Source: Adhaeribacter radiodurans
GTDB taxonomy: Bacteria > Bacteroidota > Bacteroidia > Cytophagales > Hymenobacteraceae
DNA: 64,000 nt
NCBI RefSeq assembly: GCF_014075995.1
Contig: NZ_CP055153.1
Coordinates: 3,038,001 to 3,102,000, forward strand
Reading direction: 5' to 3'
This document shows, piece by piece, positions 1-61,049 of the stretch. Under the pieces are notes generated by a model. That model ran no database searches and had not been told where the DNA came from. It saw only the letters and a program-made list of their open reading frames with translations. Position numbers and translations under genes: made by a program. Each line of letters starts with the position of its first letter. Position 1 is the first letter of the stretch.

Positions 1-2983
1 CCCCATCCAAAGTTTTAACAACGGTAGTCAGATAATCGGAATTGCTGCCGCCGTAGCGGAGATTCCAGGCTTCCAGAGTAGAGGGAGGGAAAATACTAAT
101 TTCGGTTTCTACCAGCCAAAAGTCATAATTGCCTTTACTGTTTTCACTCTTTTCGTAACTGGAGGTGGAGTTAGAATAGCCGCCGAGCAAATAGCGTCCG
201 TTAGGAGCAGCTATAATGGCCGTTAACTTGTCGGAATTACGTGCACCGAAACTTTTATCAACAATCTTTTGACCATTTCCATCTATCTCTACGAGCCAGT
301 AATCTTCCCGTCCTCTGTTTTCCTCGCTTCGATCGCCACCTTGATCGGAATAAGTATAACCAGCCAGTAAATAATGACCCAATGGAGTAAGTAAGATTTC
401 TACCGGAGTGGAGCTGTTTATTTCGCAAGCCGCACAAGGAAGAATTGAACCTCCTCCATAGGTTCTATCCCATATTTTATTACCCTTACCATCTGTTTTT
501 ACTATCCAGTATACAGAAGGTTCAAAACTAGAAACACCCGCCAACAAGTAACCACCATCGGGTGTTGAAACTAAGTCTGATAGCTTAGAGTAGTAGTCAC
601 GGGCGTACGTTTTATCCCAGAGTTGCTGGCCATGAGCGTCTATTTTTATTATCCAGTAAACACCCTGCGCGCCTACGTCTCCCGTCTCAAAACCACTTGT
701 TCCACCCAACAAATATCCCCCATCAGGGGTGGTTATAATAGATGTTAACCTATCTTCTTGCATACTATCTGCTTCCGTAATACCAAAGGTTTTGTCCCAT
801 ATTTTTTTACCCTTGCTATCTATCTTCACTACCCAATAATCCGGTGAATAACTTCCTTGTGCATCTGGTCTGCCTTTATTACTTTCACTTTTGTCGGCAC
901 TCTTACCCGATCGGGAATATCCCCCTAGTAAATACCCGCCATCAGGTGTGGTTATAATTGTAGTGAGGTTATCCTCCTGATTTCCACCAATGGTTTTATC
1001 CCATAGCTTTTTGCCCGTAGCATCTACTTTTACTAACCAGTAATCACTCGCACCTTTACTGACTTCACTTTTATCACCTTCTTTACCTGAGGAAGAGGAG
1101 CCTCCTAACAGATAACCACCATCTGTAGCAGCTATAATAATAGAAATTGTCTCGGCACCTTTGCCTCCAAAGGATTTGTCCCAAACCTTATTCTTATTTT
1201 TATCTACTTTCACGAGCCAATAATCCGAAGAGCCTTTACTAGCCATACTCTTGTCTCCAGATATACCCGAAGCAGAAGTACCTGCTAGCAAATAACCACC
1301 TTCGGGAGTAGCTACCATATCCGCCAGAATATCAGCACCATCACTTCCGATGGTTTTATCCTGTTTTTTAGGGAGCCTTTGTACCTGGAAGCTCGTGGTG
1401 TATTCCACAGGACTATAGCTATCGTTGCCAGCCTGAAATGCTTTCACTACTACCGTGCCGTACCCGGTAAATCGCAACTGCTGGCCTTTTTGAGTAGCCG
1501 GTCCGGAAATAAGCTTAAAAGTAACGGGCAAACCTGAGTTAGTCTTAGCCAAAAGGGTATACGGCGAATTGGTAAGGGCTTGGTCGGGAGGGTAAAAAGT
1601 AATAGTTTGTACTTTCTTGTTTGGGATCTGGAGCTTTACTAACCAATAATCATCGTTATTAGCTAAGCGATATTCGTTATTAGTATTGGCCAATAGAATA
1701 TTACTATCACTAGTAAGCGCTAATTGAGGCCCACTTTCTACATTGGTATCCCAGAGTTTATTTCCTTTAATATCAATTTTTAAGACCCAAATGCTGCCAA
1801 TACTTCTGCGGATACCCATGTCCCCGCCCCCGGCTGAACGAGAATAGCCGCTCAAAAGGTAACCACCGTCCGGAGTTTTCAGCAAAGAGGCAAGTTCATC
1901 TGATCTATTACCGCCATAAGCTTTATCCCATACTTTAGTGCCATCAGCTTTAATCTTAATAATCCAAAAATCCCCTTTTTTATCATAGTTTTCTGTTTCA
2001 TCCCGGGTAGGTTCACTTCTATCTAAGCTTTTATCTGACTCGGAGATGCCACCCACCAAGTATCCTCCATCAGGTGAAATAGACATTGTAGTGAGTCTAT
2101 CCTCCGCATACCCTCCGTACGTTTTATCCCATTGCTTTTTTCCCGCGGCGTTAATCTTTATTACCCAATAATCATTACAGGGCTCACTAAATTTATAACA
2201 ATTACTTTTTCTTGGTTCACTTTTATCGCCGCTTTTATTTGAGTAAGAAGAGCCTCCCAGTAGATAGCCACCATCGGGAGTAGTAATCAAAGAGCTTAGT
2301 AAATCTTGGCTATCCCCTCCAAAAGTCTTTTCCCAAACTTTGCTTCCATCTGCATTCAGCTTTGATACCCAATAATCATAAGAACTGGATTCGGAATAAG
2401 TAATGCCACCTAAAATAAGACCACCATCGTTGGTTGGCTGTAGAAATGAAAATTCATCTTCACTAAAAGTTTTATCCCAGACTTTGGTACCATCGGGTTT
2501 TAACTTCACCATCCAAATACCCGTATGGGAATCCGCTTTATCACCCGATTTGTCGGAATTAGAAAAACCTGTAAGGATATAACCGCCATCATCTGTTTGT
2601 TGAATTCTTCTCAATTCATCTTTTTTATTTCCTCCGATAGTTTTATCCCAGGTTTTACTACCATTGACGTTTAGCTTAATTACCCAGTAATCAGTGCTAC
2701 AGTTCTCGTCAGTACATACTCCCCGGTTGGCTTCGGATTTGTCCCCACTGATATCCGAGTTGGAGGAACCGCCTAAAATATAACCACCATCACTGGTTTG
2801 TTGTACGGAAGCTATTTTATCACTTCGGTTCCCTCCATAGGTTTTATCCCACAACTTAATTTGGGCAGTAGAAGAAGTAGTAAATTGAGACCATAACAAG
2901 AGCATAAAAACAAATCGAGAGTAGAAAGACAGGAAAGTAAAAAGATACCTACCTCTTAATAGAAGAGATACAGGTGTTTTCAT
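1..2983 (-). CDS. Giant triple-propeller T9SS-type repeat protein, paralog A (N-terminal part, runs off the window)
   Basis: The frame is open from an ATG at 2983-2981 to the window edge, about 994 residues. The start MKTPVSLLLRG matches the MKTxLS starts of the paralogs and is followed by a hydrophobic signal sequence ending near STAQ. Seven WDK-type repeats come first (KLWDKTYGG, KTWDKTIGG and so on), then an Ig-like module with the AFQAGN signature (about residues 461-538), then seven more repeats, and the first repeat of a third set (AWNLRYGG) at about residue 973. By analogy with the complete paralogs the missing part holds six repeats and a C-terminal sorting domain. Two loops carry paired cysteines just before the DYW strand (GVCTDENC and NCYKFSEPC). 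Probably exported and surface-attached; ligand unknown. Confidence 0.85.
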   Translation of the reverse strand, partial: MKTPVSLLLRGRYLFTFLSFYSRFVFMLLLWSQFTTSSTAQIKLWDKTYGGNRSDKIASVQQTSDGGYILGGSSNSDISGDKSEANRGVCTDENCSTDYWVIKLNVNGSKTWDKTIGGNKKDELRRIQQTDDGGYILTGFSNSDKSGDKADSHTGIWMVKLKPDGTKVWDKTFSEDEFSFLQPTNDGGLILGGITYSESSSYDYWVSKLNADGSKVWEKTFGGDSQDLLSSLITTPDGGYLLGGSSYSNKSGDKSEPRKSNCYKFSEPCNDYWVIKINAAGKKQWDKTYGGYAEDRLTTMSISPDGGYLVGGISESDKSLDRSEPTRDETENYDKKGDFWIIKIKADGTKVWDKAYGGNRSDELASLLKTPDGGYLLSGYSRSAGGGDMGIRRSIGSIWVLKIDIKGNKLWDTNVESGPQLALTSDSNILLANTNNEYRLANNDDYWLVKLQIPNKKVQTITFYPPDQALTNSPYTLLAKTNSGLPVTFKLISGPATQKGQQLRFTGYGTVVVKAFQAGNDSYSPVEYTTSFQVQRLPKKQDKTIGSDGADILADMVATPEGGYLLAGTSASGISGDKSMASKGSSDYWLVKVDKNKNKVWDKSFGGKGAETISIIIAATDGGYLLGGSSSSGKEGDKSEVSKGASDYWLVKVDATGKKLWDKTIGGNQEDNLTTIITTPDGGYLLGGYSRSGKSADKSESNKGRPDAQGSYSPDYWVVKIDSKGKKIWDKTFGITEADSMQEDRLTSIITTPDGGYLLGGTSGFETGDVGAQGVYWIIKIDAHGQQLWDKTYARDYYSKLSDLVSTPDGGYLLAGVSSFEPSVYWIVKTDGKGNKIWDRTYGGGSILPCAACEINSSTPVEILLTPLGHYLLAGYTYSDQGGDRSEENRGREDYWLVEIDGNGQKIVDKSFGARNSDKLTAIIAAPNGRYLLGGYSNSTSSYEKSENSKGNYDFWLVETEISIFPPSTLEAWNLRYGGSNSDYLTTVVKTLDG

Positions 2984-3282
2984 TTTGGTAGGTGTTTAAA
3001 AAAGTTCGGCTAATTGAAGAACATCAAAATGAGAACTTGGCGCTTGAGGAAACAGTAAACTAGCCAGGCCACCGGGAAGGGTAAAAGGCGATTAAATAAT
3101 ATTTTTACAGGATTTAATCTACAAAAAATTAAACTGTAAACTAGAAAAAGCAGATCATTTTTTAAATAATGATATTTCTTAAGTTTTAATGCTGAATACA
3201 ATGCTTTTTATTTCTGTAGTAAGTTCATCCAATATTCCTTAAAAAGCAGATGAATACCCAGCAGTAACAAGTGAGTAGAAAC
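2984..3282. other. Intergenic spacer between paralogs A and B
   Basis: About 300 bp holding the presumed leader of paralog A and the 3' flank of paralog B. A 63-codon open frame here has no homology I recognise and low-complexity hydrophobic composition, so I do not call it. A weak copy of the leader block seen in other spacers (agccaggccaccgggaagg) lies around 3062. Confidence 0.4.
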
Positions 3283-6200
3283 TTAATGAGCTATCAAGAG
3301 TTTAGCTGTATGGCTCTTATTTACAGAATTTAAGCGCAGTAAATACATTCCTGCAGGTTGACGACTAGTCTGCCAGTGGATTTTATTATTTTGATTGGCT
3401 ATTGCTTCTCCTTGGAACAAAGTAGCCCTTTCTTTGCCCTGACTGTCGTATACCTTTACCGTAGCTACTTGCGTTTGCGGCAAAGTAAAACGGATGCTTA
3501 CCTGGTCTTTAGCTGGATTAGGATAAACTCTAAGTGGACTTAGCTCTGGTTCTATTACCGGCTCTGTCCTAACGATAGCCTCTCTTTCGGCTACAATGGA
3601 GGTAGCTTCGGGCGCTACTTTCACCAGCCAATAATCTGTGCCTCCCTGACTTGGTTGGGTTCTATCTCCACTCACTCCCGAATCGGACTTTCCTCCTAAC
3701 AAATAACCTCCTTCACTGGTCTGAATGACCGCTCTTAGTTCTTCTGCTCCGCTACCTCCTAAGGTTTTACTCCACTCATACTGCCCGTCTTTGTCCGCCT
3801 TTACGATCCAGTAATCACTCGAGCCTTGGCTGTCCTGTCGTTTGTTGCCGCTCCGGTTAGAAAACGACTTTCCGGCTAGCAAATACCCGCCATCTTGGGT
3901 GGGAATACTGGCTCGTAGTTCATCATCTTTCTCTCCTCCGTAGCGTTTGTCCCACACTTTCTCGCCTGTACTACTTACTTTCAAAAGCCAGTAATCTAAG
4001 CCTCCCTGACTATCTCTGGTCTTATCAAATCCGGCCGGAGAATCACTTTGCCCAGCCAGAAAGTAGGTACTTCCGGCTTTTCCTACTGAATAAGCTTCAT
4101 CCTGCCCTGTACCGCCGTAGGTCTTATCCCAGAGCTGCTTGCCCTCTTTATCTACTTGTACTAACCAGAAATCACTCTTGCCGAGACTGGCTTCCGTCTT
4201 ATTGCCGTTTTTACCCGACCAAGAACTACCGCCTAGTAAGAATTCACCATCCGCTGTTTGAACAATTCCGCCTAAAACTTCGTCTAAACTGCCGCCATAC
4301 CGCTGATCCCAGAGTTTCTTTCCGCTGCTGCTGGTCTTGACTAACCAATAATCATTACCTCCCTGACTGTCCTGCGTTTTATCTCCACTTACGGGTGAGT
4401 TGCTGTATCCAGCTAAAATGTATTCGCCCGTAGAGAGTTGTAATACTTTCTTTAGCTCATCATAGCCACTACCCCCATAGCTCTTGTCCCACTGCTTCGT
4501 ACCAGCCTTATCTACTTTTATGATCCAGTAATCCCTATCTCCTCGACTGACTTCGCTCTTATCGCCGCTCTTACCCGACAAAGAACTACCCGCCAGTAAA
4601 TAACCCCCATCTTTCGTCGGAATAATCCGGTTAAGGTAATCATCACCACTTCCACCATAGCGTTTGTCCCACAGCTTTTTCCCATTCTGATCACTTTTCA
4701 CCAGCCAGTAATCGTTCTTGCCCTGGCTAGACTGTGTTTTATCGCCACTTACTCTTGAAGCTGAGTAACCTCCGCTGAGATAACCACCATCACTGGTCTT
4801 GATAATCGTAGTAAAGCCTTCGTTCCCCGAACCACCATACCGTAGGTTCCATTGTGCGGTAAGGGGCAGGTCTTCTTTTACCTTGACTACCCAGTAGTCG
4901 CGTTTTCTAGAATCATACAGGAAAGTAGTATCTAGGGAAGTCTCGGTTTTATCACCTCCAATACTACCCATCGAAGAACCCGCTAGCACATAACCTCCAT
5001 CCTGAGTAGGTACTGCCCCAACCAGAAAATCTGATTCCCGGCTACCAATGGTTCTATCCCAAAGCTTCGTGCCTTCTCCGTCTATCTTCACCAGCCAGTA
5101 ATCTTCTGGTAAGAAAATTTCCTGATACCCTCCCCCTTCTGCTGGATACAGGATATCTTGTCCCCTAGTATTTTCGCTCTTTTCGCCCCCTTTATAAGAA
5201 TCAGAAGTACCCGCTAAGAGATAATTTCCCTCCGGAGTAGAGATAATGGATTTCAGCTTGGAATTACCCGTAAACCCAGAAAAAAAGCCTCCTGCTAAAA
5301 TACCGCCGTAAATTTTATCCCATACTTTCGTGCCTTTACCGTCTATCTTTATTACCCAATAGTCGTTTAATCCAGAATTAAGTCCGTAATTCAGATTACT
5401 ATCGGTCTTTTCGGCTCCTTTCTCGGCACTCGAATAGCCCCCAAGTAGGTAGCCGCCATCTGGGGTGACCAGCAGAGAGGTAAGCACGGAACTACCCGCC
5501 TGGAAATGGCAATCATCCGGATCTTCAAAAGCACCACAATCTTCGTGTTCGTACGTTTCTTTTATCCCGCCATAGGTTTTATCCCAAAGCTTTGTGCCAT
5601 CTTCTTTTAGGCTTATGATCCAATAATCTTCAATGCCCCGGCTCGACTGACTTTTATCCCCGCTCTTACCCGAAGCTGATGCACCGCCGACCAAATACCC
5701 GCCTTCGGGAGCGACCACCAGGCTAGCGAGTTTATCGGCTTCGCTGCCGCCGTAGCTTCTATCCCACAGCTTCTTACCCGCACCATCTACCTTAATCAGC
5801 CAATAATCACTTTTTCCCTGACTGGCCTGACTTTTATCCCCGCTTTTACCGGACCGAGAATTGCCCCCTAGTAAATAACCTCCATCTGGGGTACTTAGTA
5901 CAGTAGTCAAGTTATCAGCAGCACTCCCGCCGTAAGTCTGATCCCAAAGTTTCTGACCATTCTCGTCTATTTTTACCAGCCAATAATCCGTACTCCCTTG
6001 ACTCGCCTGGCTCTTGTCACAGGACTTACCCGAAGCCGAGAAACCTCCCAGCAAATACCCGCCATCAGTAGTAGCTAATATGGCAGTAAGACTATCCGCA
6101 TTATTACCTCCATAAGTCTTATCCCACACTTTCGCTCCCTGGGAATCTATCTTTACCAGCCAAAAATCTCTGGAACCCTGGCCGGAACTACTTTTATCGG

Positions 6201-7956
6201 CGGTTTTCCCCGAACCCGAATATCCTCCTACTAAATAGCCGCCATCCGCAGTATTTACTATAGCCGTTGCAACATCCGGATTATAGCCACCCCAGGTTTT
6301 GTCCCACTGTACTTTCACTAGCTTCTTTTCTTCTACCTCAAAACTTTGCGTAGCTTCGCTTGGATTATAGGTTTCATTGCCCGCCTGAAAAGCCCGGATG
6401 GTGACGGTACCCACTCCGGCAACCGTAACAATATTGCCCTTGATTTTGGCCGGACCCGAGATTATTTTAAACGTAACCGGCAGCCCGGAACTAGCCGTAG
6501 CCGACAGTTCAAAAGGAGCATCACCGACGGCTCGGTTCAGGAAAATAGTGGGGGCAAAGGTGATATCTTGACCTTGGCGACCCTTATTATTCAGCTTTAC
6601 TACCCAGTAATCGTCATATCCTTTACTGGCTTGAGTTTTATCACCACTAACGCTGGAAGAAGAAGTGCCCCCCAAAATATAGCCACCATCGCTCGTCTGC
6701 TCTAGCGAGGTAAGTTCATCGTCACTATTGCCGCCAATGGTTCTATCCCATTCTTTATTGCCATCGGGGCTTAGTTTTATTATCCAGTAATCACCCCTAT
6801 AGTATCCACCTTTATTATCCTCCGTTTTATCTCCACTCCGGTTTGACATAGACGAACCACCTAGGATATATCCCCCATCTCGCGTCTGCTAGAGAGAAGT
6901 TAATACTTCTTCACCTGATCCGCCGAAGGATTTATTCCAAACCTGGGTGCCATCGGCTTTAATTTTTATAATACCAAAATTAGTAGGATCAGGTTCGTAA
7001 AGAGAAAAGACGCCATAACCCACTACGTAGTCCCCATCAGCGGTAATTTGTGGAACAAGTTGCTGACTGGAGAATTGTTCATCTATACTTTTTTCCCAAA
7101 CTTTAGTACCATCGGCCTTTAATTTAATGAGGGTTAAAATACTTTGAGAATTAACATCACTGAAAGCACTGCCAATTAGGTAGCCGCCATCCGGCGTAAT
7201 GATTACAGAGGCAAGATAATCGTAATACATCCCTCCATAGGTCTTATCCCATATCTTTTGGCCTTTTCCATCTATTTTTACTAACCATAAATCGCTATAA
7301 CCTTTGCTAATTTCGGTTTTATCTCCGCTTTTGCCCGAGGAAGAAGTGCCTCCTAGAATATAATCGCCATCTCTGGTTTGCTGTAAGGAAGTTAACTCAT
7401 CTCCACTATCTCCTCCAATGGTTTTATCCCACTCTTTCGTGCCATCTGCTTTTAATTTTACTATCCAATAATCGGTAGGGTAACCGTATTCACTTTCCTT
7501 TCCTTTATTCTCTTCGGATTTATCGCCGGATTTTCCGGAATTAGAAGAACCACCCAACATATAACCACCATCACTGGTAAGTTGAAGAGAAGTTAAATAA
7601 TCGTCCCTATCTCCTCCAATGGTTTTATCCCACTCTTTGCTGCCATCTGCTTTTAGCTTCACTATCCAATAATCAGAGGTGCAATATTCACCACAGGGTC
7701 CTTTATTCGCTTGTGATTTATCATCGCTGATACCAGACCCAGAAGTACCACCTAAAATATAACCGCCATCGCTGGTCTGGTGTACTACTTTAAAATAGTC
7801 ATTCCTACTACCACCAATAGTTTTGTCCCATACTTTGGTTTGGGCCTGGGAGAAGAAAGTAACTAGCAGCCCTAATAGCAGCAGAAAAGTTGCCTGGCTC
7901 CAGGAAGGAAGTAAACCCAGAATAAGTTTACTTTTAAGCAGGATAGGTGTTCTCAT
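3283..7956 (-). pseudogene. Giant triple-propeller T9SS repeat protein, paralog B, interrupted by an in-frame TAG
   Basis: Two open stretches (355 codons from ATG 7956; 1,188 codons ending at 3283) are in the same frame and separated by a single TAG at 6889-6891. The paralogs have Gln (SLQQT) there, so CAG to TAG is the simplest explanation. Read through, the product has about 1,557 residues: signal peptide (hydrophobic core, ending FSQAQ), seven repeats, an Ig-like module (about 464-548), seven repeats, linker DLPLTAQW, seven repeats from about 1034, and a type A sorting domain from about 1475 (VYPNPAKDQVSIRF, AGMYLLRL). The stop falls in repeat 6. The 3' half alone has no signal peptide, so it could not be exported. 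Either a pseudogene or a readthrough gene; a sequencing error cannot be excluded. Confidence 0.8.
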
Positions 7957-8222: not shown

Positions 8223-11200
8223 TTAACGAGTAAGCAGGAGCTTAGAAATTTGACTTTTACCCAAGGTATGCAGGCGCAGTAAATACATTCCGGCAGCTTG
8301 ATTCCTCGCATGCCAGTGAAGTTGGTAGAGCTGATTTGCTTGCGCCTGGCCTTGGAACAAAGTAGCTACTTCTCTGCCTTGGCTGTCGTACACCTGTACC
8401 GTGGCTGTTTGAGTTTGAGGAATGATAAAGCGAATATTTACTTGGTCTTGGGCCGGATTCGGATAAATCGTTAATGAATGTAGTTCTGCTTCTACTACCG
8501 GTTCTGTTAATGGCATGGCTTCCCTTTCCGCTACTATGGAGGTAGCTTCAGGAGTTACTTTCACCAGCCAGTAATCTGTGCCACCCTGGCTAGGCTGGGT
8601 TCTATCCCCACTCACCCCAGAATCCGACCGACCTCCCAGTAAGTACCCGCCATCGGAAGTATGCAGAGCCATCCGGTTTTCTTCGTATCCACTTCCTCCA
8701 AAACGCTTGTCCCATTGTTTAACCCCCGTACTGCTTGTCTTTACGATCCAGTAGTCACTCGAACCCCAATTCGGTTGGGTTTTATCCCCGCTTATGCCCG
8801 ATTCGGAACGGCCTGCCAGCAAGTAGCCCCCGTCGGTGGTTAACAGAATGGTACGTAGGCCTTCGTGACCGCTACCGCCAAAGCGCTTATCCCAGATTTT
8901 AGTTCCCTCACCATTTATCTTCAGCATCCAGAAGTCTTTACCGCCTTGACTGCTCTGACTAAAGTCTCCCTGGGCACCTGAGGTACTGTGACCGGCCAGA
9001 AAGAAGTTACCCGTAGCAGTGCGGGTGCTGCCTAAATCCATCAGGTTATCTTCGCCCGCGCCCCCAAAACGTTTATCCCATAACTTCGTCCCTTTGTCAT
9101 TCACCCGGACTATCCAGTAATCACTGCCGCCCCAACTCGCCTGGGTCTTATCACCGCTAATGCCCGAAAGAGAACTGCCCCCTAGCAGAAAGCCTCCGTC
9201 TAAAGTAAGTGCCAAGGCTTCCAAATTTTCGTTTAAAGAGCCGCCATAAGTCTTATCCCAGAGCTTTTTGCCATTTTTATCAATTTTCATTAACCAGTAA
9301 TCCTGCTCACCGCGGCTAGCTTGGCTTTTGTCTCCGCTCACGGGTGAGTTGCTCATACCAGCTAAGATATACTCTCCAGTAGCGAGTTGCAGTACTTTTT
9401 GGAGTTCTTCTACTCCACTGCCTCCAAAACGCTTGTCCCACTGCTTTACGCCCGTACTGCTTATTTTCACTATCCAGTAATCGCGACTGCCCCGGCTAGC
9501 TTCTGTCTTATCTCCTCCATTTCCCGAAAGAGAGGAACCACCCAGCAAGTAACCGCCATCAGAAGTCTGAATGAGTGTATTCAAGTAATCCTCATCTGTT
9601 CCCCCGTAGCGTTTGTTCCAGAGTTTTTTCCCATCCTTATCACTCTTCACTATCCAGTAGTCGTTCTTGCCTTGACTCGCTTGACTTTTATCCCCGCTCA
9701 TCTCCGAAGTGGAATAACCTCCTGAGAGATATCCGCCATCCGAAGTCTTGATGATGGCTGTTAAGTTATCTTTACCCGAACCGCCATACCGCTTCTCCCA
9801 TTGAACCATACTAGGCAACTCTTCTTTTAGCTTTATTACCCAGTAATCGCGTTTGCCGCTGGCATACTGAAATGTTGTATCTCGGGAAGCCTCTGATTTA
9901 TCCCCGCCGATGCCGTAAGCCGCCGAAGAACCCGCCAGCACGTAGCCCTCCGGAGTAGCTATTATGGTAGCTAGCTCATCATAATCTTCGCTGCCATAAG
10001 TTTTATCCCATTTCTTCGTGCCATTGCCATCAATCTTCACTAACCAATAATCTTCGGCACTTGGGAAAAAGGTGTAATATCCCCCATCCTCAGCCGGATA
10101 TTCGATAATTTCTCCACATTTACTACCTTCACTTTTATCCCTTCCTTTATCTGAATCGGAGGTACCTGCTAGTAAGTAATTACCGTCTGGCGCTGCTACC
10201 ATACTGCGAAGAACAGAGTTGCCCGTAATAAAATAACCGGTACTATTATCACTTTTTTCTACGGCAATACCACCGTAAGTTTTATCCCATAATTTTGTCC
10301 CTTTACTATCAATCTTTACCTCCCAATAATCTCGTAAATCAGCATTATCTATTGAATAACCTAAGTTGCTATCCGTTTTATCGGCACCTTTATCCGCATT
10401 GGAGTAGCCGCCCAGCAGGTATCCTCCATCGGGGGTAAGAAGTAGAGTAGTAAGAACCGAATGACCTATTTCCCTAAGACAACTCCCTTCACAATTGTCT
10501 AATTGGTAAGTTTCTGTTATCCCTCCAAAGGTTTTATCCCAGAGTTTGGTACCGTTTTCACTCACACGTACTACCCAGTAATCTTCTACACCGCGACGGT
10601 CTTGACTTTTATCGCCGTTCTCATCCGAAGCAGAAGAACCACCTAGCAAAAAGCCACCATCCGGAGTAGCTATTATGGCGGTCAGTCCATCGCTGCTGCT
10701 GCCCCCGAAGGTCTTATCCCATAATTTTGCTCCCTGGGCATCTATCTTTACCAGCCAAAAATCCGTAGCAGGGTAACCATTTTGATTAGGGGTTCCCCGG
10801 TTCGGTTCACTCTTATCTCCGTTTTTCCCCGAAGAGGAAGAACCGCCGAGTAAAAAGGAATTATCCGGCAAAGCAACCAACGTGGAAAGGTAATCATATT
10901 CATTACCTCCTAATGTTTTATCCCAGATCTTTTGCCCGTTGCCATCTATTTTAATGATCCAATAATCGTTTTGCCCGCGGCTTTCTTCACTTTTCTCCCC
11001 ACTTTTACCTGAACGGGAACGCCCCCCCAACAAATAACCGCCATCAGCAGTAGGTATTAGGGCGGTAAGTTCATCACGGTCATTTCCGCCAAAAGTTTTA
11101 TCCCAAAGCTTATTGCCCTGCTGATCCACCTTTACCACCCAATAATCAGATCCGCCCCGACTAGCTTCGGACTTGTCACCACTCTTGCCTGACTCCGAGC

Positions 11201-22878: not shown

Positions 22879-25800
22879 TTAGCGATGAAGCAAAAGTTTA
22901 ACAGTATGGTTCTTATATGAAGAATGCAATTGTAGTAGATACATCCCAGCAAGTAGGTTATTAGCTTGCCATTGAAGTTGATAAGTTTGGTTAGCTTGGG
23001 CTTGGCCTTGGAACAAAATAGCTGTTTCTCTTCCTTGGCTGTCGTACACCTTTACTGTAGCAGCTTGCGTTTCGGGCAAAGTAAATCTTACCGTTACTTG
23101 CTCTTGGGCTGGATTGGGATAAACCGTTAATGAACTTAGTTCGGTTTCTACTACTGGCTCTGTTACAAGCATTGTTTCTCTTTCGGCTACAATAGGATTG
23201 GCTTCAGGAATTACTTTCACCAACCAGTAATCACTACCTCCTTGGCTGGGTTGGGTTCGGTCGCCACTTACCCCCGAATCAGACTTACCTGCTAACAAGA
23301 AACCACCGTCCTGGGTTTGAATGACGGCTCTTAGCTCTTCTGCACCACTGCCGCCGAAAGTTTTGCTCCATTCATATTGACCTTCCTTGTCGGCTTTCAC
23401 GATCCAGTAGTCACTCGATCCTTGGCTATCTTGCCTCTTATTACCACTCTTGTTGGAGAAGGACTTTCCAGCTAGTAAGTAGCCACCATCCTGGGTTGGA
23501 ATACTAGCCCTAAGCTCGTCGTCTTTTTCTCCTCCATAACGTTTATCCCACACCTTCTCACCCGTACTCGTTACTTTTAAGAGCCAGTAATCCAAGCCTC
23601 CCTGACTATCCCTGGTCTTGTCCAATCCGGCCGGAGAATTACTTTGCCCGGCCAGGAAGTAGGTAGTGCCCGCTTTTCCCACTGAGTAGGCTTCATCTTC
23701 ACCGGTTCCTCCGTAAGTTTTATCCCAAAGTTGCTTTCCTTCTTTATCTACAGCAACTAGCCAGAAATCACTCTTACCTCTACTTCCTTCCGTCTTGTTG
23801 CCGCTTTTACCCGACCAGGAACTGCCGCCGAGTAAATATCCACCATCCGACGTTTGCACGATCCCTCCTAACATTTCCTCTAAGTTGCCACCGTACCGCT
23901 GGTTCCATAACTTCTCTCCCTTACTGCTAATCTTGACTAACCAATAATCATCCCCTCCCTGACTCGCCTGCGTTTTATCTCCACTTACAGGTGAGTTACT
24001 GTAACCTGCTAGAATGTATTCTCCCGTAGAGAGTTGTAGCACTTTCTTGAGTTCATCCGAGCCACTTCCCCCATAACTCTTATCCCACTCCTTATTTCCT
24101 TGCTTGTCTATCTTGACAAGCCAGTAATCCCGATCTCCTTTATTAACTTCCGTTTTGTCGCCACCTTTCCCGGACAATGAACTACCCGCCAGTAAATACC
24201 CTCCATCTTTCGTCGGGATAATCCGGTTGAGGTAATCATCTGATGTGCCTCCATAGCGTTTGTCCCACAACTTCTTACCGTTCTGATCAGATTTCACTAT
24301 CCAGTAGTCGTTCTTGCCCTGACTAACTTGACTTTTATCCCCACTTACCCTAGAAGCCGAATAGCCTCCCGACAAGTAACCTCCATCCGTAGTTTTAATT
24401 ATCGACGTAAAACCTTCATTACTTGAACCACCATATCGAAAGTCCCATTCGGCTGCTAATGGAAGTTCTTCTTTTAGCTGTACTACCCAAAAATCTCCCT
24501 TTAGAGTAGGACCAGTATCTCGGGTAGGTTCACTCTTATCACCGGTTGCGCCTGAATAAGAAATGCCTCCTAATAAATAATAGCCTTCCCGGGAAACAAT
24601 TAGTGCTGAAAGCTTATCAATGTTATCTCCTCCTAAGGTTTTATCCCATAGCTTTTTACCACTATTATCTATTTTTACAACCCAATAATCACCGGAATTT
24701 TGGCCTCCACGGTACTCCCCAGTTTTATCTTCACCGATACCCGAAGAAGAAGAACCACCTAACAGAAAGCCCCCATCTACAGTGGCTACTACTGTTGCTA
24801 ACCCGTCGCTAGCATTACCACCAATAGTTTTATCCCACACCTTTTTACCCTGACTATCAATTTTCACTAGCCAAAAGTCTGATGTTGAGTAACCATTTAC
24901 ATCTGGCACACCTTTATTAACTTGGCTCTTGTCGCCACTTTTACCTGAGTTTGAGGAACCTGCTACTAAATACCCCCCGTCCGGAAAAGCTTTAATCTCT
25001 GAAATGCCATCACTCTTATCACCACCTAAGGTTTTGTCCCATATCTTTTTACCCTGGGCATCGATCTTGACTAACCAATAGTCGGTAGAAGGTGAACCAT
25101 ACTCATCCAACCCACCCTTATTAGGCTCACTCTTATCCTTGCCCTTACCCGAACTAGAAGAACCACCCAGTAAATAGCCTCCATCTGAAGTTACCAGCAG
25201 AGTGGACAGGAAATCATAATCATTCCCCCCGTAGTGCTTATCCCAAACCTGATTGCCCTTAGCATCAATTTTTACTACCCAATAATCATATCCATCACCC
25301 GCCACAGCCGTACCAGACTCCCCACCCAACAGGTAACCTCCATCTGGCGTAGTTACTAGAGCACCCAGGTAGTTGTTATCAGAGCTAGCAAAACTCTTCT
25401 CCCATTGCTTAGTACCATTACTACTAATTTTTACTACCCAATAAACATTACTAAAATCGAAATAGGCAGAACCTCCCAGTAGATAGCCTCCATCTGGGGT
25501 GACTATCATACTTGATAGACTATTTCCCAGATCCCCCAAAACGCTTAAGGTTACATCCCATATCTTCTTCCCATTTTTATCTATCTTCACTAGCCAGTAA
25601 CCACTTGTAGCATCACTTTTATCATCTTCTTTACCAGAATTAGAATCTCCCGCTAACAAATACCCACCGTCCGGGGTGGCTACCATACTTACAAGTTTGT
25701 CATACGTTTTTCCTCCATACCGTTTATCCCAGAGTTTAGTAACAGGAGAAGAAGGATCCACTAAAATAGTTTGAGTAACTTCGGGAGCCGCAGCGTAAGT

Positions 25801-27423
25801 AGCATTACCTGATTGAGTAGCTTTTACTATAACTTTCCCTACGCCGGTAACTGTGAGATTATTATTTTTAAGAATGGCTGGACCTGAAACTAACTTAAAA
25901 GTTACGGGCAGACCCGAACTGGCCTGAGCAGAAAGGATAAATGGAGAATCGCCCAAGGATTTTGTAATAAGAGGAGTTGGTATGGTAATGGTTTGTCTTT
26001 TTTTATTGATATCGGTAACATCCTCTATTTTTAAGGCCCAAAAGTCATAGGAACCCCGACTGGCTTCACTTTTGTCCCCACTAATACCTAAAAAAGAAGT
26101 CCCCCCTAATAAGTACCCCTTATCCTTATTGGTTACTAAAGATCCTAATTGAAATGAATTCCAAATACCTTCTACACTTCCGAAAGTTTTTTCCCATACT
26201 TTGGCTCCATTCTCTTTTATCTTAATTAACCAATATCCATTTTTATCCTCACTCTTATCGCCCCCTTTTTTCCTGTTAGAAGTTCCCGCCAGTAGGTAAC
26301 CTCCATCCGGCGTGGATACTATATCGGCAAACATATCGTAGGTACTGCCACCGTAGCTCTTATCCCACACCTTTTCACCATTGGCTTTTAATTTCACTAT
26401 CCAATACCCGGCATACGAGGTACTCTTGTCTTCATTCTTCCCCGAACCGGCAGAACTGCCAAGCAAATATCCCCCATCCGCTGTTGCCAACAACCTAGTA
26501 AGGTTATACCCTCCACTTAAAGTTTTATCCCAAAGCTTTTTACCTGTAGCATCTATCTTTATAACCCAATACCCCGACTTTTCTTCACTCTTATCGCCGC
26601 TCTTATGCGAATCGCACCTTCCACCGAGCAGATATCCCCCATCCGGGGTAGCTAACAAGGCAGATAACCAGTCGATATTACTTCCCCCAAACCGTTTGTC
26701 CCAAACTTTGGAACCATCTGCTTTTATTTTTACCAACCAAAAATCACTAATACCTCTAGATGGCTCCGATTTATCCCCGTTCTTACCTGTTTCGGAAAGA
26801 CCGCCCATTAAATAGCCGCCATCCAAAGTAGCCACAATGGAGGAGAGTTCATCATCGTCATCGCCACCAATGGTTTTATCCCATATTTTTTTGCCGTTAG
26901 CATCTATTTTCACTATCCAAAAGTCGGCAGGAATATATCCATATTCATCTAGTGTTCCCTTATTACTTTCACTTTTATCTCCACTCTTCCCTGAATGGGA
27001 GGAACCGCCTAGTAAATACCCGCCATCCGGAGAAGCCACTATGGTCGCAAGTTCTTCCGAATTATCTCCGCCGTATGTTTTATCCCAAATTTTCTGGCCT
27101 TTACTATCTATTTTTACCACCCAATAATCGCCTTTATTATTAGGAATGTAGTTCTTCTTATCTCGGCTATCTTCACTCTTATCTTCTCCTTTATTCGACA
27201 GAGACGAACCACCCAGTAAGTAGCCTCCATCGGCCGTAGCTACTACAATGGAAAGTTTATCTTCATTTTTTCCACCTATTGTTTTATCCCAGACTTTGTT
27301 TTGGGCTTGAGAGGAGAGAATACTCAACAAGAAGAATAATAGTATAAAAACCACCGGGAACCAGGCAGGTTTTAAATTAGAAAAGCCTTCATGGATAGTT
27401 AGAAAAGATAGAGGTGTTTTCAT
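22879..27423 (-). CDS. Giant triple-propeller T9SS-type repeat protein, paralog F (intact, about 1,514 aa)
   Basis: An ATG six codons further up (27441) is possible, but the ATG at 27423 gives MKTPLSF, matching the MKTxLS starts of A, C and E and the conserved ggtgttttcat around it, so I choose it. Signal peptide ends LSSQAQ. Seven repeats, Ig-like module at about 474-560 (TQTILVD end), seven repeats, linker KEELPLAAEW, seven repeats from about 991, sorting domain from about 1433 (VYPNPAQEQVTVRF, AGMYLLQLH). Blade 9 has the degenerate KIWDVTLSV with a shortened loop, matching KIWDITLDE in paralog D, which links D and F as close relatives. Predicted surface protein. Confidence 0.87.
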   Translation of the reverse strand: MKTPLSFLTIHEGFSNLKPAWFPVVFILLFFLLSILSSQAQNKVWDKTIGGKNEDKLSIVVATADGGYLLGGSSLSNKGEDKSEDSRDKKNYIPNNKGDYWVVKIDSKGQKIWDKTYGGDNSEELATIVASPDGGYLLGGSSHSGKSGDKSESNKGTLDEYGYIPADFWIVKIDANGKKIWDKTIGGDDDDELSSIVATLDGGYLMGGLSETGKNGDKSEPSRGISDFWLVKIKADGSKVWDKRFGGSNIDWLSALLATPDGGYLLGGRCDSHKSGDKSEEKSGYWVIKIDATGKKLWDKTLSGGYNLTRLLATADGGYLLGSSAGSGKNEDKSTSYAGYWIVKLKANGEKVWDKSYGGSTYDMFADIVSTPDGGYLLAGTSNRKKGGDKSEDKNGYWLIKIKENGAKVWEKTFGSVEGIWNSFQLGSLVTNKDKGYLLGGTSFLGISGDKSEASRGSYDFWALKIEDVTDINKKRQTITIPTPLITKSLGDSPFILSAQASSGLPVTFKLVSGPAILKNNNLTVTGVGKVIVKATQSGNATYAAAPEVTQTILVDPSSPVTKLWDKRYGGKTYDKLVSMVATPDGGYLLAGDSNSGKEDDKSDATSGYWLVKIDKNGKKIWDVTLSVLGDLGNSLSSMIVTPDGGYLLGGSAYFDFSNVYWVVKISSNGTKQWEKSFASSDNNYLGALVTTPDGGYLLGGESGTAVAGDGYDYWVVKIDAKGNQVWDKHYGGNDYDFLSTLLVTSDGGYLLGGSSSSGKGKDKSEPNKGGLDEYGSPSTDYWLVKIDAQGKKIWDKTLGGDKSDGISEIKAFPDGGYLVAGSSNSGKSGDKSQVNKGVPDVNGYSTSDFWLVKIDSQGKKVWDKTIGGNASDGLATVVATVDGGFLLGGSSSSGIGEDKTGEYRGGQNSGDYWVVKIDNSGKKLWDKTLGGDNIDKLSALIVSREGYYLLGGISYSGATGDKSEPTRDTGPTLKGDFWVVQLKEELPLAAEWDFRYGGSSNEGFTSIIKTTDGGYLSGGYSASRVSGDKSQVSQGKNDYWIVKSDQNGKKLWDKRYGGTSDDYLNRIIPTKDGGYLLAGSSLSGKGGDKTEVNKGDRDYWLVKIDKQGNKEWDKSYGGSGSDELKKVLQLSTGEYILAGYSNSPVSGDKTQASQGGDDYWLVKISSKGEKLWNQRYGGNLEEMLGGIVQTSDGGYLLGGSSWSGKSGNKTEGSRGKSDFWLVAVDKEGKQLWDKTYGGTGEDEAYSVGKAGTTYFLAGQSNSPAGLDKTRDSQGGLDYWLLKVTSTGEKVWDKRYGGEKDDELRASIPTQDGGYLLAGKSFSNKSGNKRQDSQGSSDYWIVKADKEGQYEWSKTFGGSGAEELRAVIQTQDGGFLLAGKSDSGVSGDRTQPSQGGSDYWLVKVIPEANPIVAERETMLVTEPVVETELSSLTVYPNPAQEQVTVRFTLPETQAATVKVYDSQGRETAILFQGQAQANQTYQLQWQANNLLAGMYLLQLHSSYKNHTVKLLLHR

Positions 27424-27441
27424 AATTGAGGATAATTGCAA

Positions 27442-27717
27442 GCAAATAGAAAATACTTATTCAACAAAAGAACACAAACCCAATTTGAGGAAAGAAGGAG
27501 ACCTAACCAGATTGCCGAAAAGATGGAAATATTTATAAAACTACTGCCCATTCAAAGAACACTCAGCAGTAAAACAACTTTGTAATATACTAAAAATTAA
27601 TAATATAGCACAATTATATACTAACTCATAATTATCAGAATGCTTCTTAAAAATAAGCTAGCTAACCTGGATTCTTTACCTATATCCAGATTAGCTAACC
27701 ATAGAAAATAACGGGTA
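27442..27717. other. Intergenic spacer between paralogs F and G
   Basis: No gene. Contains ctaaccagattgccga (27503-27518) and tgtaatatactaaaaattaa (27581-27600), the same two blocks as before paralog C at nearly the same distances from the start codon. Near 27660-27705 short inverted and direct copies of agctaacc sit just beyond the end of paralog G. Confidence 0.5.
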
Positions 27718-30700
27718 TTAACGAACAAGCAAGAGTTTAGTAAAGCGGGTCCTCTCCGAAGTATGCAGTTGCAGTAAATACATTCCTGCGGGTTGATGAT
27801 CTGCTTGCCATTGCAGTTTATAAGTTTGTTTCGCTTTTGCTACTCCTTGAAACAAAGTGGTTATACTCCTACCATGACTATCGTAAATCTTCACCGTAGT
27901 TGTTTGTGATTTCGGCAAAGTAAAGCTTATAATTACCTGGTCTTTGCCTGGGTTAGGATAAGCTGTAATTGGACTTAGCTCCGTCTCTTTTACCGGCTCT
28001 GCCATAACAATGGCTTCTTTCTCGGTAATAATAGATATTTTCTCAGTCGCTACTTTCACCAGCCAATAATCCGTTCCTCCTTCGCTGGGCTGGGTTCTAT
28101 CGCCACTCACTCCGGACTCGGACTTTCCTCCTAACAGAAAACCACCTTCCTGAGTCTGAATAACGGCTCGTAGTTCTTCTGCCCTGCTACCACCAAAAGT
28201 TTTGCTCCACTCGTACTGTCCTTCTTTATTGGCTTTCACGATCCAGTAATCACTCGACCCTTGACTATCTTGCCGCTTATTACCACTCTTGTTGGAGAAG
28301 GACTTTCCGGCTAATAAGTACCCGCCATCTTGGGTCGGAATACTGGCTCTTAACTCATCATCTTTACTTCCCCCATACCGTTTGTCCCACACCTTCTCTC
28401 CGTTACTACTTACTTTCAACAGCCAGTAATCTAATCCTCCTTGACTATCTCGCGTCTTATCTAATCCAGCGGGGGAATCACTCTGCCCGGCTAAGAAGTA
28501 AGTACCCCCAGATTTTCCTACTGAGTAGGCTTCATCTTGCCCTGTACCGCCATACGTTTTGTCCCAGAGTTGATTGCCATTCTTATCTACTTGAACCAAC
28601 CAGAAGTCACTCTTGCCGCGACTTAATTCGGTCTTATTCCCGCTCTTGCTCGACCAGGAACTACCTCCTAGTAAAAAGCCATCATTCGCCGTCTGAACAA
28701 TACTAGCCAAAACTTCGTCTAAGCTGCCGCCATACCGTTGATCCCACAGCTTCTTGCCCGTGCTACTGATCTTGACTAACCAGAAGTCGTGCTTACCTTG
28801 GCTAGCCTTCGTTTTATCTCCACTCACCGGAGAGTTGCTGTTCCCGGCTAATATGTATTCTCCCGTGGAGAGTTGTAAGACTTTCTTGAGTTCATCTATG
28901 CCACTGCCACCATAGCTCTTGTCCCATTCTTTAGTACCTTGCTTGTCTATCTTTACTAGCCAGTAATCCCGGTCTCCATGACTAGCTTCTGTCTTATCAC
29001 CTCCTTTTCCCGACAAAGAACTACCCGCCAGTAAATACCCCCCATCTTTCGTCGGAATAATGTGGTTGAGGTAATCATCACCACTTCCACCGTAGCGTTT
29101 GTCCCATTCCTTTTTCCCGTTCTTATCAGATTTGACAATCCAATAATCATTCTTGCCCCGGCTACTCTGACTTTTATCCCCGCTTACTCCGGAAGTTGAA
29201 TAACCACCCGATAAATAACTACCATCAGAGGTCTTGATTATGGTAGAAAAGCCATCATTGCTGGAACCACCGTAACGCATGTCCCATTGTGCCGTTAATG
29301 GCAGTTCCTCTTTTACTTTTACCAGCCAAAAATCTCGTTTATCCAATGCGTATTGGCTATTGAAATCACGGGAAGCTTCTGTTTTATTTCCCCCAATACC
29401 ACCCGCCGAAGAACCGGCTAATAGATAACTACCATCTGGAGTAGGTACAATTGCTGTCAGCTCGTCGGTATCTAAACTTCCGTGGGTTCTATCCCATTTC
29501 TTCGTGCCTTCACCGTCAATCTTAACCAACCAATAATCTTCTGCTCCCGGTTCAAAGTACCCTGCACCGGAAGTACCCGCCAACAAGTAATCGCCATCCG
29601 GCGTAGGGATAATGGAGGCAAGCGTGCAATCAACCGGGCCATTATAGATCTTATCCCACACTTTCGTACCCGTACTGTTTATTTTAACTACCCAATAATC
29701 TTCGCTATCGAAATAATAATTATCATCATGTACATCCTGATTATCTTCGGTCTTTTCTGCCCCGTACTCGGCACTGGAATATCCCCCTAGCAGGTAGCCG
29801 CCATCCGGGGTAGCGAGCAAGGCCGTCAGAATAGATTTACCTAATTCGGTAACACACTGTGTCGGGTCTTCATAAGGGCAATCTCCCCATTTATACCTTT
29901 CTTTTACGCCACCTAAAGTTTTATCCCACAGCTTAGTACCATCTTCTTTTAAGCGCACTATCCAATAATCTTCCAAGCCTCGGCTCACCTCGCTTTTATC
30001 CCCGCTCTTCTCCGAAGCCGAAGAACCACCGATAAGGTACCCGCCCCCTTTCGGAGCACCTACTATTGCTGTCAAATTATCCGTTTCGCTCCCGCCAAAG
30101 CTCTTATCCCAAACCTTCCGGCCTTCAGCATCTACCTTTATCAGCCAGTAATCACCACTTCCCTGGCTTGCCTGGCTTTTGTCGCCACTTTTACCGGAGT
30201 AAGAACTGCCGCCTAATAAATACCCGCCATCTGGAGTAACCAGTAAACTAGTCAGGTTATCCGCCGCACTGCCACCATACGTCTTATCCCACAGCTTCTG
30301 ACCAGTCGCATTTATTTTTACCAGCCAAAAGTCCGTATTTCCCATGCCCGGTTGGCTTTTATCCCCACTCTTACCCGAAACCGAGGAGCCACCCAGCAAA
30401 TAACCGCCATTTGGCGTAGGAAGAATGACAGCAAGATGATCTGCCTCATCTCCACCGTAAGCTTTATCCCACATTTTTTTACCCTGACTATCGAGTTTTA
30501 CAAGCCAAAAATCTGACGGGTAGTAACCTTGTTCATTGGGAGTTCCCTTGGCATCTTCACTCTTTTCGCCGGTTTTGCCCGAAAGGGAAGATCCGCCCAC
30601 TAAATAACCTCCATCCGGGGTAGGAACCATGGCGGTAAGCTTATCGGGTTTATTCCCACCCATGGTTATATCCCACAGTTTCTTGGTTGGAGGCACGAAG

Positions 30701-32262
30701 AAAGTTTGCTTGGCGGTAGCTGGAATATAAGTAGCATTACCGGCTTGTAAAGCTTCTATAATTACTTCCCCTACTCCCGTAATGGTGACGATATTTCCCT
30801 TGACCGCAGCGTTCCCGGATATTACGCGAAAGGTAATCGGCAACCCAGAGCTGGCTTGAGCGGTAATGGCAAAAGGCTCACTGCCAAAAGTTTTATCCGG
30901 AATAGGAGAAAAGGTGATACTTTGATTTAATCGGCTACTATTATCCAGTTTTGCTAGCCAATATTCCGACATATTTGTATTAGACCAGGAACGTCCTCCC
31001 AGAAGATACTCCCCATCACTGGTAAGTTGCAAACTAGTTAACGAATATTGCCCATTATCACTAATGTTGGTATCCCATACTTTATTCCGGTTAGCATCTA
31101 GTTTCACCATCCAGCTTCCCGCCAGGATATACCCTCCATCGCTCGTTTGCTGCGCCGAGAATAAGCCTTGATCACTTGCTTCCCCTATAGTTTTATCCCA
31201 AATTTTGTGACCATCAGCCTGCAGCTTTACAATCCAGTAATCATCATTTTTAGATGGTTCGGATTTATCTCCCCCTATTCCGGACCAGGAAGTACCTCCC
31301 AAAAGATAACCACCATCCTGAGTTTGCTGCAGCGAATTCAGCCGGTCAGCACCGTAACCACCAATTGTTTTATCCCAAACTTTACGGCCATCTGCCTGTA
31401 GCTTTACGATCCAATAATCATCAAGACAGTAACCTTGGTTGCATTTACCCCGGGGATTTTCCGATTTATCACCGCTAGTACCGGATCCAGACTTACCACC
31501 CAGAATATAGCCACCATCACTGGTCTGCTGCATCGAAGTTAAGACATCAGAACTAACTCCGCCAATTGTTTTATCCCAAGCTTTCGTACCATTGGCATTC
31601 AGCTTCACAATCCAGTAATCATACATTCCTCTAGAAGCTTCTGTTTTATCACCGCTCTTACCCGAGTAAGAATAACCTCCCAGAATATAGCCTCCATCAC
31701 TCGTTTGCTGCAATGAAACTAATCGGTCATCATTGTCGCCACCAAATGATCTATCCCAGGCTTTGGTGCCATTGGCCTTTAGCTTTACTACCCAGTAATC
31801 ACTGGTAGGATTACCATTTTCATCTAACTCCCCTTTTTTAGCTTCTGATTTATCCCCACCTTTTCCAGACCAGGAATAACCGCCCAATATATACCCGCCA
31901 TCACTCGTTTGGTGTACCGAGGTTAACCAGTCTGCCTTTTCCCCGCCCAAGGTTTTATCCCATACTTTGTTTCGGTTGGCATCTAGCTTTACTACCCAAT
32001 AATCATAATCACCTCGGCGGGCTTCTGTTTTGTCACCACTAAGGAGGGAGTTAGAACTACCTGCCAGAATATAACCCCCGTCACTGGTTCGTTGCATGGA
32101 ATTTAAGTTATCCTCCTTACTACCACCAAAATTATTTTGCCAGAGTTTGCCTTGACCTTGGGTGGAGAAAGTAACCAATAGCCAGAAAAGTAGCATAATA
32201 GCTGTCCAACCTGCGGATAGAGGTAAACTAGAAATACTCTTACTTCTATAAGGCATGATCAT
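27718..32262 (-). CDS. Giant triple-propeller T9SS-type repeat protein, paralog G (intact, 1,514 aa)
   Basis: Start MIMPYRSKS (the second Met two codons on is also possible); hydrophobic signal ending TQGQ. Seven repeats, the first degenerate (KLWQNNFGG) and the seventh short (KVWDTNISD); Ig-like module at about 446-523 (QSITF ... KQTFFV); seven repeats; linker KEELPLTAQW; seven repeats from about 990; sorting domain from about 1429 (AYPNPGKDQVIISF, AGMYLLQLHTSE). Its Ig module and middle propeller (GGVKERYKWGDC insert, SSAEYGAEKTE) group with paralogs B and C although those lie more than 14 kb away. Repeat 4 has a cysteine-pair loop (GKCNQGYCLDDYW). It is the right-hand end of the array. Confidence 0.88.
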   Translation of the reverse strand: MIMPYRSKSISSLPLSAGWTAIMLLFWLLVTFSTQGQGKLWQNNFGGSKEDNLNSMQRTSDGGYILAGSSNSLLSGDKTEARRGDYDYWVVKLDANRNKVWDKTLGGEKADWLTSVHQTSDGGYILGGYSWSGKGGDKSEAKKGELDENGNPTSDYWVVKLKANGTKAWDRSFGGDNDDRLVSLQQTSDGGYILGGYSYSGKSGDKTEASRGMYDYWIVKLNANGTKAWDKTIGGVSSDVLTSMQQTSDGGYILGGKSGSGTSGDKSENPRGKCNQGYCLDDYWIVKLQADGRKVWDKTIGGYGADRLNSLQQTQDGGYLLGGTSWSGIGGDKSEPSKNDDYWIVKLQADGHKIWDKTIGEASDQGLFSAQQTSDGGYILAGSWMVKLDANRNKVWDTNISDNGQYSLTSLQLTSDGEYLLGGRSWSNTNMSEYWLAKLDNSSRLNQSITFSPIPDKTFGSEPFAITAQASSGLPITFRVISGNAAVKGNIVTITGVGEVIIEALQAGNATYIPATAKQTFFVPPTKKLWDITMGGNKPDKLTAMVPTPDGGYLVGGSSLSGKTGEKSEDAKGTPNEQGYYPSDFWLVKLDSQGKKMWDKAYGGDEADHLAVILPTPNGGYLLGGSSVSGKSGDKSQPGMGNTDFWLVKINATGQKLWDKTYGGSAADNLTSLLVTPDGGYLLGGSSYSGKSGDKSQASQGSGDYWLIKVDAEGRKVWDKSFGGSETDNLTAIVGAPKGGGYLIGGSSASEKSGDKSEVSRGLEDYWIVRLKEDGTKLWDKTLGGVKERYKWGDCPYEDPTQCVTELGKSILTALLATPDGGYLLGGYSSAEYGAEKTEDNQDVHDDNYYFDSEDYWVVKINSTGTKVWDKIYNGPVDCTLASIIPTPDGDYLLAGTSGAGYFEPGAEDYWLVKIDGEGTKKWDRTHGSLDTDELTAIVPTPDGSYLLAGSSAGGIGGNKTEASRDFNSQYALDKRDFWLVKVKEELPLTAQWDMRYGGSSNDGFSTIIKTSDGSYLSGGYSTSGVSGDKSQSSRGKNDYWIVKSDKNGKKEWDKRYGGSGDDYLNHIIPTKDGGYLLAGSSLSGKGGDKTEASHGDRDYWLVKIDKQGTKEWDKSYGGSGIDELKKVLQLSTGEYILAGNSNSPVSGDKTKASQGKHDFWLVKISSTGKKLWDQRYGGSLDEVLASIVQTANDGFLLGGSSWSSKSGNKTELSRGKSDFWLVQVDKNGNQLWDKTYGGTGQDEAYSVGKSGGTYFLAGQSDSPAGLDKTRDSQGGLDYWLLKVSSNGEKVWDKRYGGSKDDELRASIPTQDGGYLLAGKSFSNKSGNKRQDSQGSSDYWIVKANKEGQYEWSKTFGGSRAEELRAVIQTQEGGFLLGGKSESGVSGDRTQPSEGGTDYWLVKVATEKISIITEKEAIVMAEPVKETELSPITAYPNPGKDQVIISFTLPKSQTTTVKIYDSHGRSITTLFQGVAKAKQTYKLQWQADHQPAGMYLLQLHTSERTRFTKLLLVR

Positions 32263-61011: not shown

Positions 61012-61049
61012 AAAAAAAGCCCTTAGGACTTAAGCTAAGGGCTTTTTTG
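61012..61049 (-). terminator. Rho-independent terminator after tRNA-Asp
   Basis: Arms agcccttag (61018-61026) and ctaagggct (61035-61043) with A- and T-runs on both sides. Directly after the tRNA 3' end on the minus strand. Confidence 0.85.

Follow-up and report, generated by a model that had tools for sequence, protein, structure and literature searches.

Seven giant genes in tandem in Adhaeribacter radiodurans: predicted three-propeller secretion cargo with a common last propeller

A stretch of 64,000 nucleotides from Adhaeribacter radiodurans (contig NZ_CP055153.1, positions 3,038,001 to 3,102,000; from here on, the window) begins with seven giant repeat genes in a row, all encoded on the minus strand and here named A to G. 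The question raised by this locus is what kind of protein these genes encode, and how such a family is put together. The answer favoured here, with a confidence somewhat above even, is that they encode cargo of the type IX secretion system (T9SS), in which two old and diverse N-terminal β-propellers (P1 and P2, the heads) and an immunoglobulin (Ig)-like spacer would be carried on a third propeller (P3) and a sorting tail that are shared between paralogs, giving many heads on a common mount. Each of the three ingredients (propellers, T9SS cargo, and arrays of paralogs) has been known before. In the literature searched, no description was found of this family, of a propeller-plus-tail mount under many heads, or of T9SS cargo in which three propellers stand in tandem and the penultimate domain is a propeller common to many members.

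Blade number and predicted fold

Repeats were counted with a 60-position hidden Markov model (HMM) built from genes D to G. Exactly 21 matches were obtained in each of the genes D (13257..17705; 1482 amino acids (aa)), E (18008..22570; 1520 aa), and F (22879..27441; 1520 aa from the listed TTG start, an ATG six codons into the frame being the likelier one), arranged as seven repeats, an Ig-like insert (about 90 aa in the array genes), seven repeats, a linker, and seven repeats. Gene G (27718..32262; 1514 aa) yields 22 matches, and B (3283..7956) and C (8223..12956) yield 23 each; all three reach 21, in the same 7+7+7 layout, once the matches split by insertions are joined, which was done by rule for G and by eye for B and C (two pieces of each being counted separately by the rule). 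The first 994 codons of gene A lie in the window (2..2983) and about 1.5 kb more lies past its edge; when completed (C2:3036496-3040995), this gene also holds 21 repeats.

The original prediction of 21 repeats in every complete member, made for B to G, holds for the count in all six and also in A. It does not hold for the completeness of B and C, which are not intact members because each has an in-frame stop in blade 6 of P1 (TAG at codon 356 of B, window 6889-6891; TGA at codon 355 of C, window 11892-11894). The two stops stand at separate points of the same blade, and may reflect independent mutations, coincidence, or assembly error. The Ig-like module, the ELPL linker, and the T9SS tail that had been predicted are present in all seven genes (A being read past the edge), and the start-to-start pitch calculated from the gene coordinates is 4749-5000 bp, in agreement with the tandem family of seven at 4.75-5.0 kb that had been described.

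The count of seven blades is a property of the whole family, in this genome as well as in its relatives. Among the repeat open reading frames (ORFs) of this genome with at least two repeats each (n = 58, a lower bound, as the regions examined were chosen among the matches listed of 255), seven repeats are found in 10, 14 in 12, 21 in 25, and other numbers in 11. Chance is excluded because 47 of the 58 are multiples of seven (binomial P ~8e-30 versus an expectation of 1/7). Eight of the 11 off-count ORFs are pieces of four genes each cut in two by a stop (genes B and C plus a pair at 1.75 Mb), and the other three hold 19, 20, and 22 repeats. In named relatives (78 loci), multiples of seven account for 75 of the 87 complete ORFs with at least three repeats, eight further ORFs that touch a locus end having been set aside. 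Seven blades per domain, the number that characterizes seven-bladed propellers, are found in this genome as in its relatives. A frame of 4,186 codons from a member of the Saprospiraceae (L085:4657-17214) holds 28 repeats as four blocks of seven.

The structure prediction that had been proposed for G was run as two overlapping AlphaFold models, which cover aa 20-992 (mean predicted local distance difference test score 81.9, predicted template modelling score (pTM) 0.52) and aa 524-1514 (81.3 and 0.57, respectively). Both models present mostly four strands per repeat in all three blocks, and neither a solenoid nor another blade number, the outcomes that would have spoken against propellers, was seen in them. 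When compared with PDB by Foldseek, both retrieve CylK as the top match (E-values of 7.5e-20 and 1.7e-22, respectively), with a target template modelling (TM) score of about 0.55 that is this low because CylK has a second domain. CylK is also retrieved from PDB by phmmer (E 3.2e-28), and it is the one Foldseek match whose blade number was verified: its C-terminal domain is described as a seven-bladed propeller with calcium sites at the blade junctions (PMC8916777). Lower matches include Photorhabdus lectins for the model of aa 524-1514 (target TM up to 0.72), a plant 40S subunit chain for both models (0.71-0.72), and, further down, many-propeller eukaryotic chains. The modelled strand pattern, together with the seven-bladed best match, supports the prediction of three seven-bladed propellers in a row per large member.

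In G, the repeat HMM and the models would delimit P1 at aa 41-441 (30940..32142, with blades 6 and 7 shortened), the Ig-like insert at aa 442-529 (30676..30939), and P2 at aa 530-985 (29308..30675, with an insertion in blade 5). These parts are preceded by a signal-peptide-like lead read by eye (aa 1-40, 32143..32262) and followed by the end of a KEELPL-type linker (29287..29307), which lies approximately at the left edge of a step in identity between paralogs. Then come P3 (aa 993-1405, 28048..29286), the position-locked shared module, and a type A T9SS sorting domain as the tail (27721..28047; Por_Secre_tail at aa 1435-1510).

Domain families add little to this picture, and annotation should take into account that, in the scanned members D, F, and G, the Pfam matches over cut-off are the sorting tail and, in D, a single short match to DUF1410. 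The SBBP and delta-60 models, which had been suggested for the single repeat, do match, both below cut-off. The delta-60 repeat TIGR02608 reaches 24.6 bits against a cut-off of 76.5, and this in G only. The repeats are clearly similar to the LipL53 family of SBBP-type propeller lipoproteins (NF047494; E 2e-32 to 2e-43 in D, F, and G), with scores (112.3, 122, and 148.7 bits) that fall outside this family, whose cut-off is 400. The Ig-like insert of G has no family match, and weak sub-threshold matches are found in E (Big_1) and F (intimin, E 0.036).

The shared last propeller and the export tail

P3 behaves differently from P1 and P2 when blades are compared between genes. In the 25 of the 58 ORFs that hold 21 repeats, the best match of a blade lies at the same position of another gene for 172 of 175 blades of P3, versus 56 of 171 in P1 and 96 of 174 in P2. 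On average, blades of different genes have an identity of 62.4 in P3 if they occupy the same position and of 47.8 if they do not; the corresponding values are 52.1 and 50.8 in P1, and 49.5 and 46.7 in P2. The top loops defined by the modelled strand order (D-A and B-C) show between-gene identities of 0.38 and 0.40 in P1, 0.36 and 0.40 in P2, and 0.62 and 0.62 in P3, and strands B, C, and D are conserved to a similar extent in the three propellers (0.64-0.73). The extra variation of the heads would lie mainly on the modelled top face, which in the CylK propeller is reported to hold the inter-blade loops and long internal loops (PMC8916777).

As in type A cargo of the T9SS, the array proteins D, F, and G carry a type A sorting domain over the curated cut-off (Por_Secre_tail / TIGR04183), and SprA, the T9SS core protein that was searched for, is encoded in the genome (2408.9 bits). 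Judged by eye, the first repeat is preceded by an A-Q junction in the six genes A to F and by G-Q in gene G, the A-Q junctions being in agreement with the Q-rule described for Bacteroidetes (PMC5837995). The tail is held by 52 of the 58 family ORFs, and has been lost to a stop in a family gene at 6.26 Mb. At least 53 of the 143 type A tail matches of the genome lie in family ORFs or within 400 bases of them, so that over a third of these matches is carried by one repeat family, whose ORFs cover at least 216,216 bases (3.12% of the genome). Alignment of the seven upstream stretches revealed no strong shared motif, and a Bacteroidetes promoter box is not enriched in the 300 bases before each open frame, counted from the frame and not from a mapped start (8 of 58, versus 11.0 in shuffles). 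Because of the T9SS tail, the family proteins are probably located at the surface, where their heads may serve in adhesion or in glycan or prey binding, as had been suggested for the array.

P3 also occurs behind other fronts. Of the two blocks present in each of the 12 ORFs that hold 14 repeats, the last agrees with the P3 register at 80 of 84 blades, compared with 3 of 84 for the first. Five of the ten seven-repeat ORFs hold a C-terminal propeller whose blades follow this register in 30 of 35 cases (in one ORF, in only 4 of 7), and the other five show this register at 0 of 35 blades. A domain scan of the non-propeller parts, which covered eight of these ten ORFs, found GEVED in the fronts of four of the five P3 carriers, one of which also holds subtilase and TIG domains. 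A reprolysin-like match just reaches the cut-off in the front of a second of these four and remains below it in that of a third, and the fifth carrier has a sub-threshold disaggregatase-repeat match in its front. P3 may therefore be regarded as a putative portable C-terminal mount. On the Adhaeribacter swui plasmid NZ_CP055155, a P3-plus-tail relative that is 63% identical lies beside hxsBCD genes (L163:4117-7614), and the protein under this match (79637-81241) is annotated as a GEVED protein.

It is proposed that the family proteins would be exported by Sec through their N-terminal signal peptide and would then transit the T9SS by means of the tail, after which they would be either anchored, as described for type A cargo (PMC9143113), or released. 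P3, as the neighbour of the tail, would serve as the fixed mount closest to the membrane, and P1-Ig-P2 would be the reaching part, with the variable top faces of both heads turned outward as binding surfaces. Recombination between P2 and P3 in part of the family would have placed many different heads on one mount. A more specific version, which is tentative and judged rather less probable than its opposite, is that P3 and the T9SS tail constitute a constant domain recognised by one surface partner, onto which recombination placed several kinds of head (pairs of propellers, lone propellers, and fronts of protease-like or GEVED type), resulting in a constant/variable display of some 25-50 members in some Adhaeribacter species. 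The family would mark where the fixed part of such proteins ends and the freer part begins, and would provide a testable case of how a large set of exported recognition proteins can share a single mount. A propeller able to take up unrelated fronts also suggests itself as a natural scaffold for display.

Proteins of this kind could also form a structural coat or matrix, in which copy number would mean dosage and not recognition. They are large, repetitive, export-tagged, and present in many copies, and the weaker Foldseek matches include 3dsm, a Bacteroides protein with the title surface layer protein. However, dosage predicts neither heads that are only ~50% identical, with much excess variation in their loops, nor a P3 behind protease-like fronts, and a coat is considered unlikely.

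Histories of the last propeller and the heads

P3 and the heads would often have had separate histories. Within-genome pairs with a P3 identity of at least 78% amount to 28 pairs of 22 genes (23 pairs in this genome, and four and one in two others). Their mean aa identity is 83.7% in P3, 53.1% in P1, and 51.9% in P2, the heads being at the background level, and their fourfold-site identity is 48.2%, 31.8%, and 35.0%, respectively. At these sites P3 exceeds the heads in all 28 pairs, with a gap that stays at 13.6-16.8 points after leaving out any gene. The tail of the same pairs is identical at 56.4% of aa and 44.0% of fourfold sites. When all 466 within-genome pairs are taken together, P3 has a fourfold identity of 37.3, compared with 32.8 for the heads.

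Genes D, E, F, and G, together with three genes at 6.27-6.29 Mb, form a clade in a quick tree of P3 (LG+G4; 55 genes, four genomes), with a Shimodaira-Hasegawa-like approximate likelihood ratio (SH-aLRT) support of 99. Identity among these seven genes is 0.23-0.63 before the linker, 0.67-0.95 in P3, and 0.35-0.62 after the last P3 blade, and the clade is rejected by both P1 and P2 (approximately unbiased (AU) test, p 0.0026 and 1e-42, respectively). The steps in identity, the fourfold gap, and the tree conflict seem best explained by recombination between P2 and P3 in at least part of the family, an exchange that is probably old. Propellers have been described as amplified from single blades, with WD40-like blade totals that peak at 7 and 14 (Pereira and Lupas 2022, PMC9218822). 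In contrast to the amplified propellers of that description, whose blades are >60% alike, the blades of the array are ~50% alike, and the notable event here would be a whole propeller with its own history.

The likeness of P3 between paralogs might instead reflect purifying selection, P3 and the heads having recombined rarely or not at all. This explanation fits the sub-family of gene A, in which the heads have stayed with their P3: the 12 within-genome pairs selected through their Ig insert, mostly from this sub-family, show aa identities of 59.8 in P1, 64.2 in P2, and 74.8 in P3. The P3 loops are, in addition, conserved as well as the strands. As the whole story, a slower P3 is countered by the fourfold sites of the high-P3 pairs, by the tree conflict, and by seven cross-species pairs chosen by their Ig insert, which have diverged evenly (aa identity of 73.4 in P1, 76.3 in P2, and 77.4 in P3; fourfold identity of 47.0 in P3 and 45.5 in the heads). 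Selection of this kind is thus an improbable explanation for the family at large.

A role of the arrays as enzymes, proposed by analogy with the alkylating enzyme CylK (PDB 7fh6, 7ron), would have in its favour that CylK is the closest match in both sequence and fold. CylK, however, is a cyanobacterial protein with one propeller fused to an enzyme domain, whereas the array proteins are predicted to have three propellers in tandem. The significant alignments span CylK residues ~248-650 only, leaving unmatched the N-terminal domain that is reported to supply the essential Arg105 (PMC8916777), and no enzyme family lies over cut-off in D, F, and G (arylsulfotransferase in F reaches 20 bits versus 24.2), which makes such an activity very unlikely. 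Least credible of all is a decaying family, duplicated without function and with drifting blades and breaking genes, which is in line with the stops in B and C, the two split genes at 1.75 Mb, and the tail-losing stop at 6.26 Mb, but not with 25 of 58 ORFs whose 21 repeats are unbroken, a tail kept by 52 of 58, and cross-species propellers at 73-78% aa identity with fourfold sites near 46%.

Several observations weigh against varied heads on a shared mount. In the 12 within-genome pairs chosen by Ig insert, fourfold identity is nearly equal in P3 (40.8) and in the heads (39.3); as the aa identity of P3 is higher, the sub-family of gene A resembles copies of entire genes in which P3 was better preserved, and the mosaic is not universal. 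The choice of high-P3 pairs itself favours P3, and the pairs used in the comparisons of P3 with the heads are not independent. The first ortholog set, six cross-species pairs (aa identity of 76.2 in P1, 80.4 in P2, and 77.6 in P3), was selected via the heads, and single cross-species pairs are uneven in both directions (P1 90 versus P3 71; P1 71 versus P3 86). The top-face contrast is not exclusive, because inner strand A also varies more in the heads (0.36, 0.36, and 0.51 in P1, P2, and P3), the C-D loop at the bottom is variable throughout (0.41, 0.41, and 0.46), and the A-B loop, likewise at the bottom, is more conserved in P1 than in P3 (0.69, 0.58, and 0.56). Some memory of position, although weak, exists in P1 (z 12.6) and P2 (z 24), and no exact 33-mer is common to different genes in P1 or P2, compared with 16 blade pairs in P3, so exchange of heads would not be recent. 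The pTM values are too low to place the wheels relative to each other, P3-type blocks make up only two of 75 last blocks in the named relatives, and two members of the array, B and C, are interrupted by stops.

Free shuffling of blades between genes, a possibility raised by the low position match of P1 and P2, is unsupported as a recent process, given the missing common 33-mers and the weak position memory. Three exact 33-mer matches do occur within single genes in P1 and P2, and neighbouring P1 blades of one gene share codons above expectation (ratio 1.16, without gene resampling). Both point to some copying of blades inside genes, with a small effect.

Spread of the family and genomic neighbourhood

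The seven genes were originally suggested to be a surface repertoire, and the family has turned out to be far larger, with dozens of genes in several arrays and single sites of this genome (two contigs, 6.94 Mb). Among eight genomes of the genus, P3-plus-tail matches (E up to 1e-100, a few being partial and to other propellers) number 51, 37, 30, and 25 in four and one in a fifth, and none were found in three, one of which is 78% complete. In the order, seven of 194 sampled genomes, this one included, hold any such match, with up to seven candidates scored per genome. Hymenobacter, Pontibacter, Emticicia, and others possess the same repeat and the same count of seven, many with a tail that is similar in length (the only property compared), and differ in that their proteins mostly hold one propeller that is not of the P3 type. 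Pontibacter sp. 172403-2 (L057) has the 7+7+7 layout with a P3-type last block and without an Ig-sized insert. Distant relatives of the propellers are also found in MT838419 (Bacteriophage sp.) and in KF114878 (Leptospira phage), the latter annotated as a beta-propeller repeat protein.

In two other genomes of the same genus, the chloride channel itself is the sole ORF of the window region that is shared in the 40 kb around it. Genes that resemble those of mobile elements flank the array on both sides. They encode, beyond gene A, a member of the phage-integrase family and an AAA_25 protein (L037:1597-2904 and 4827-5933), and an AAA_24 protein and a DUF3871 protein beyond gene G (window 33638-35495). 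Further along the window, a 1263-aa ORF of low GC content (0.35-0.39) without any Pfam or PADLOC match (50159-53950) adjoins a DUF1016/YhcG nuclease gene (53962-55023) that matches the PADLOC candidate PDC-S02 (E 1.5e-145), and the two perhaps represent a defence candidate. A DDE transposase gene (58805-60325) lies near a tRNA-Asp gene (61049-61123).

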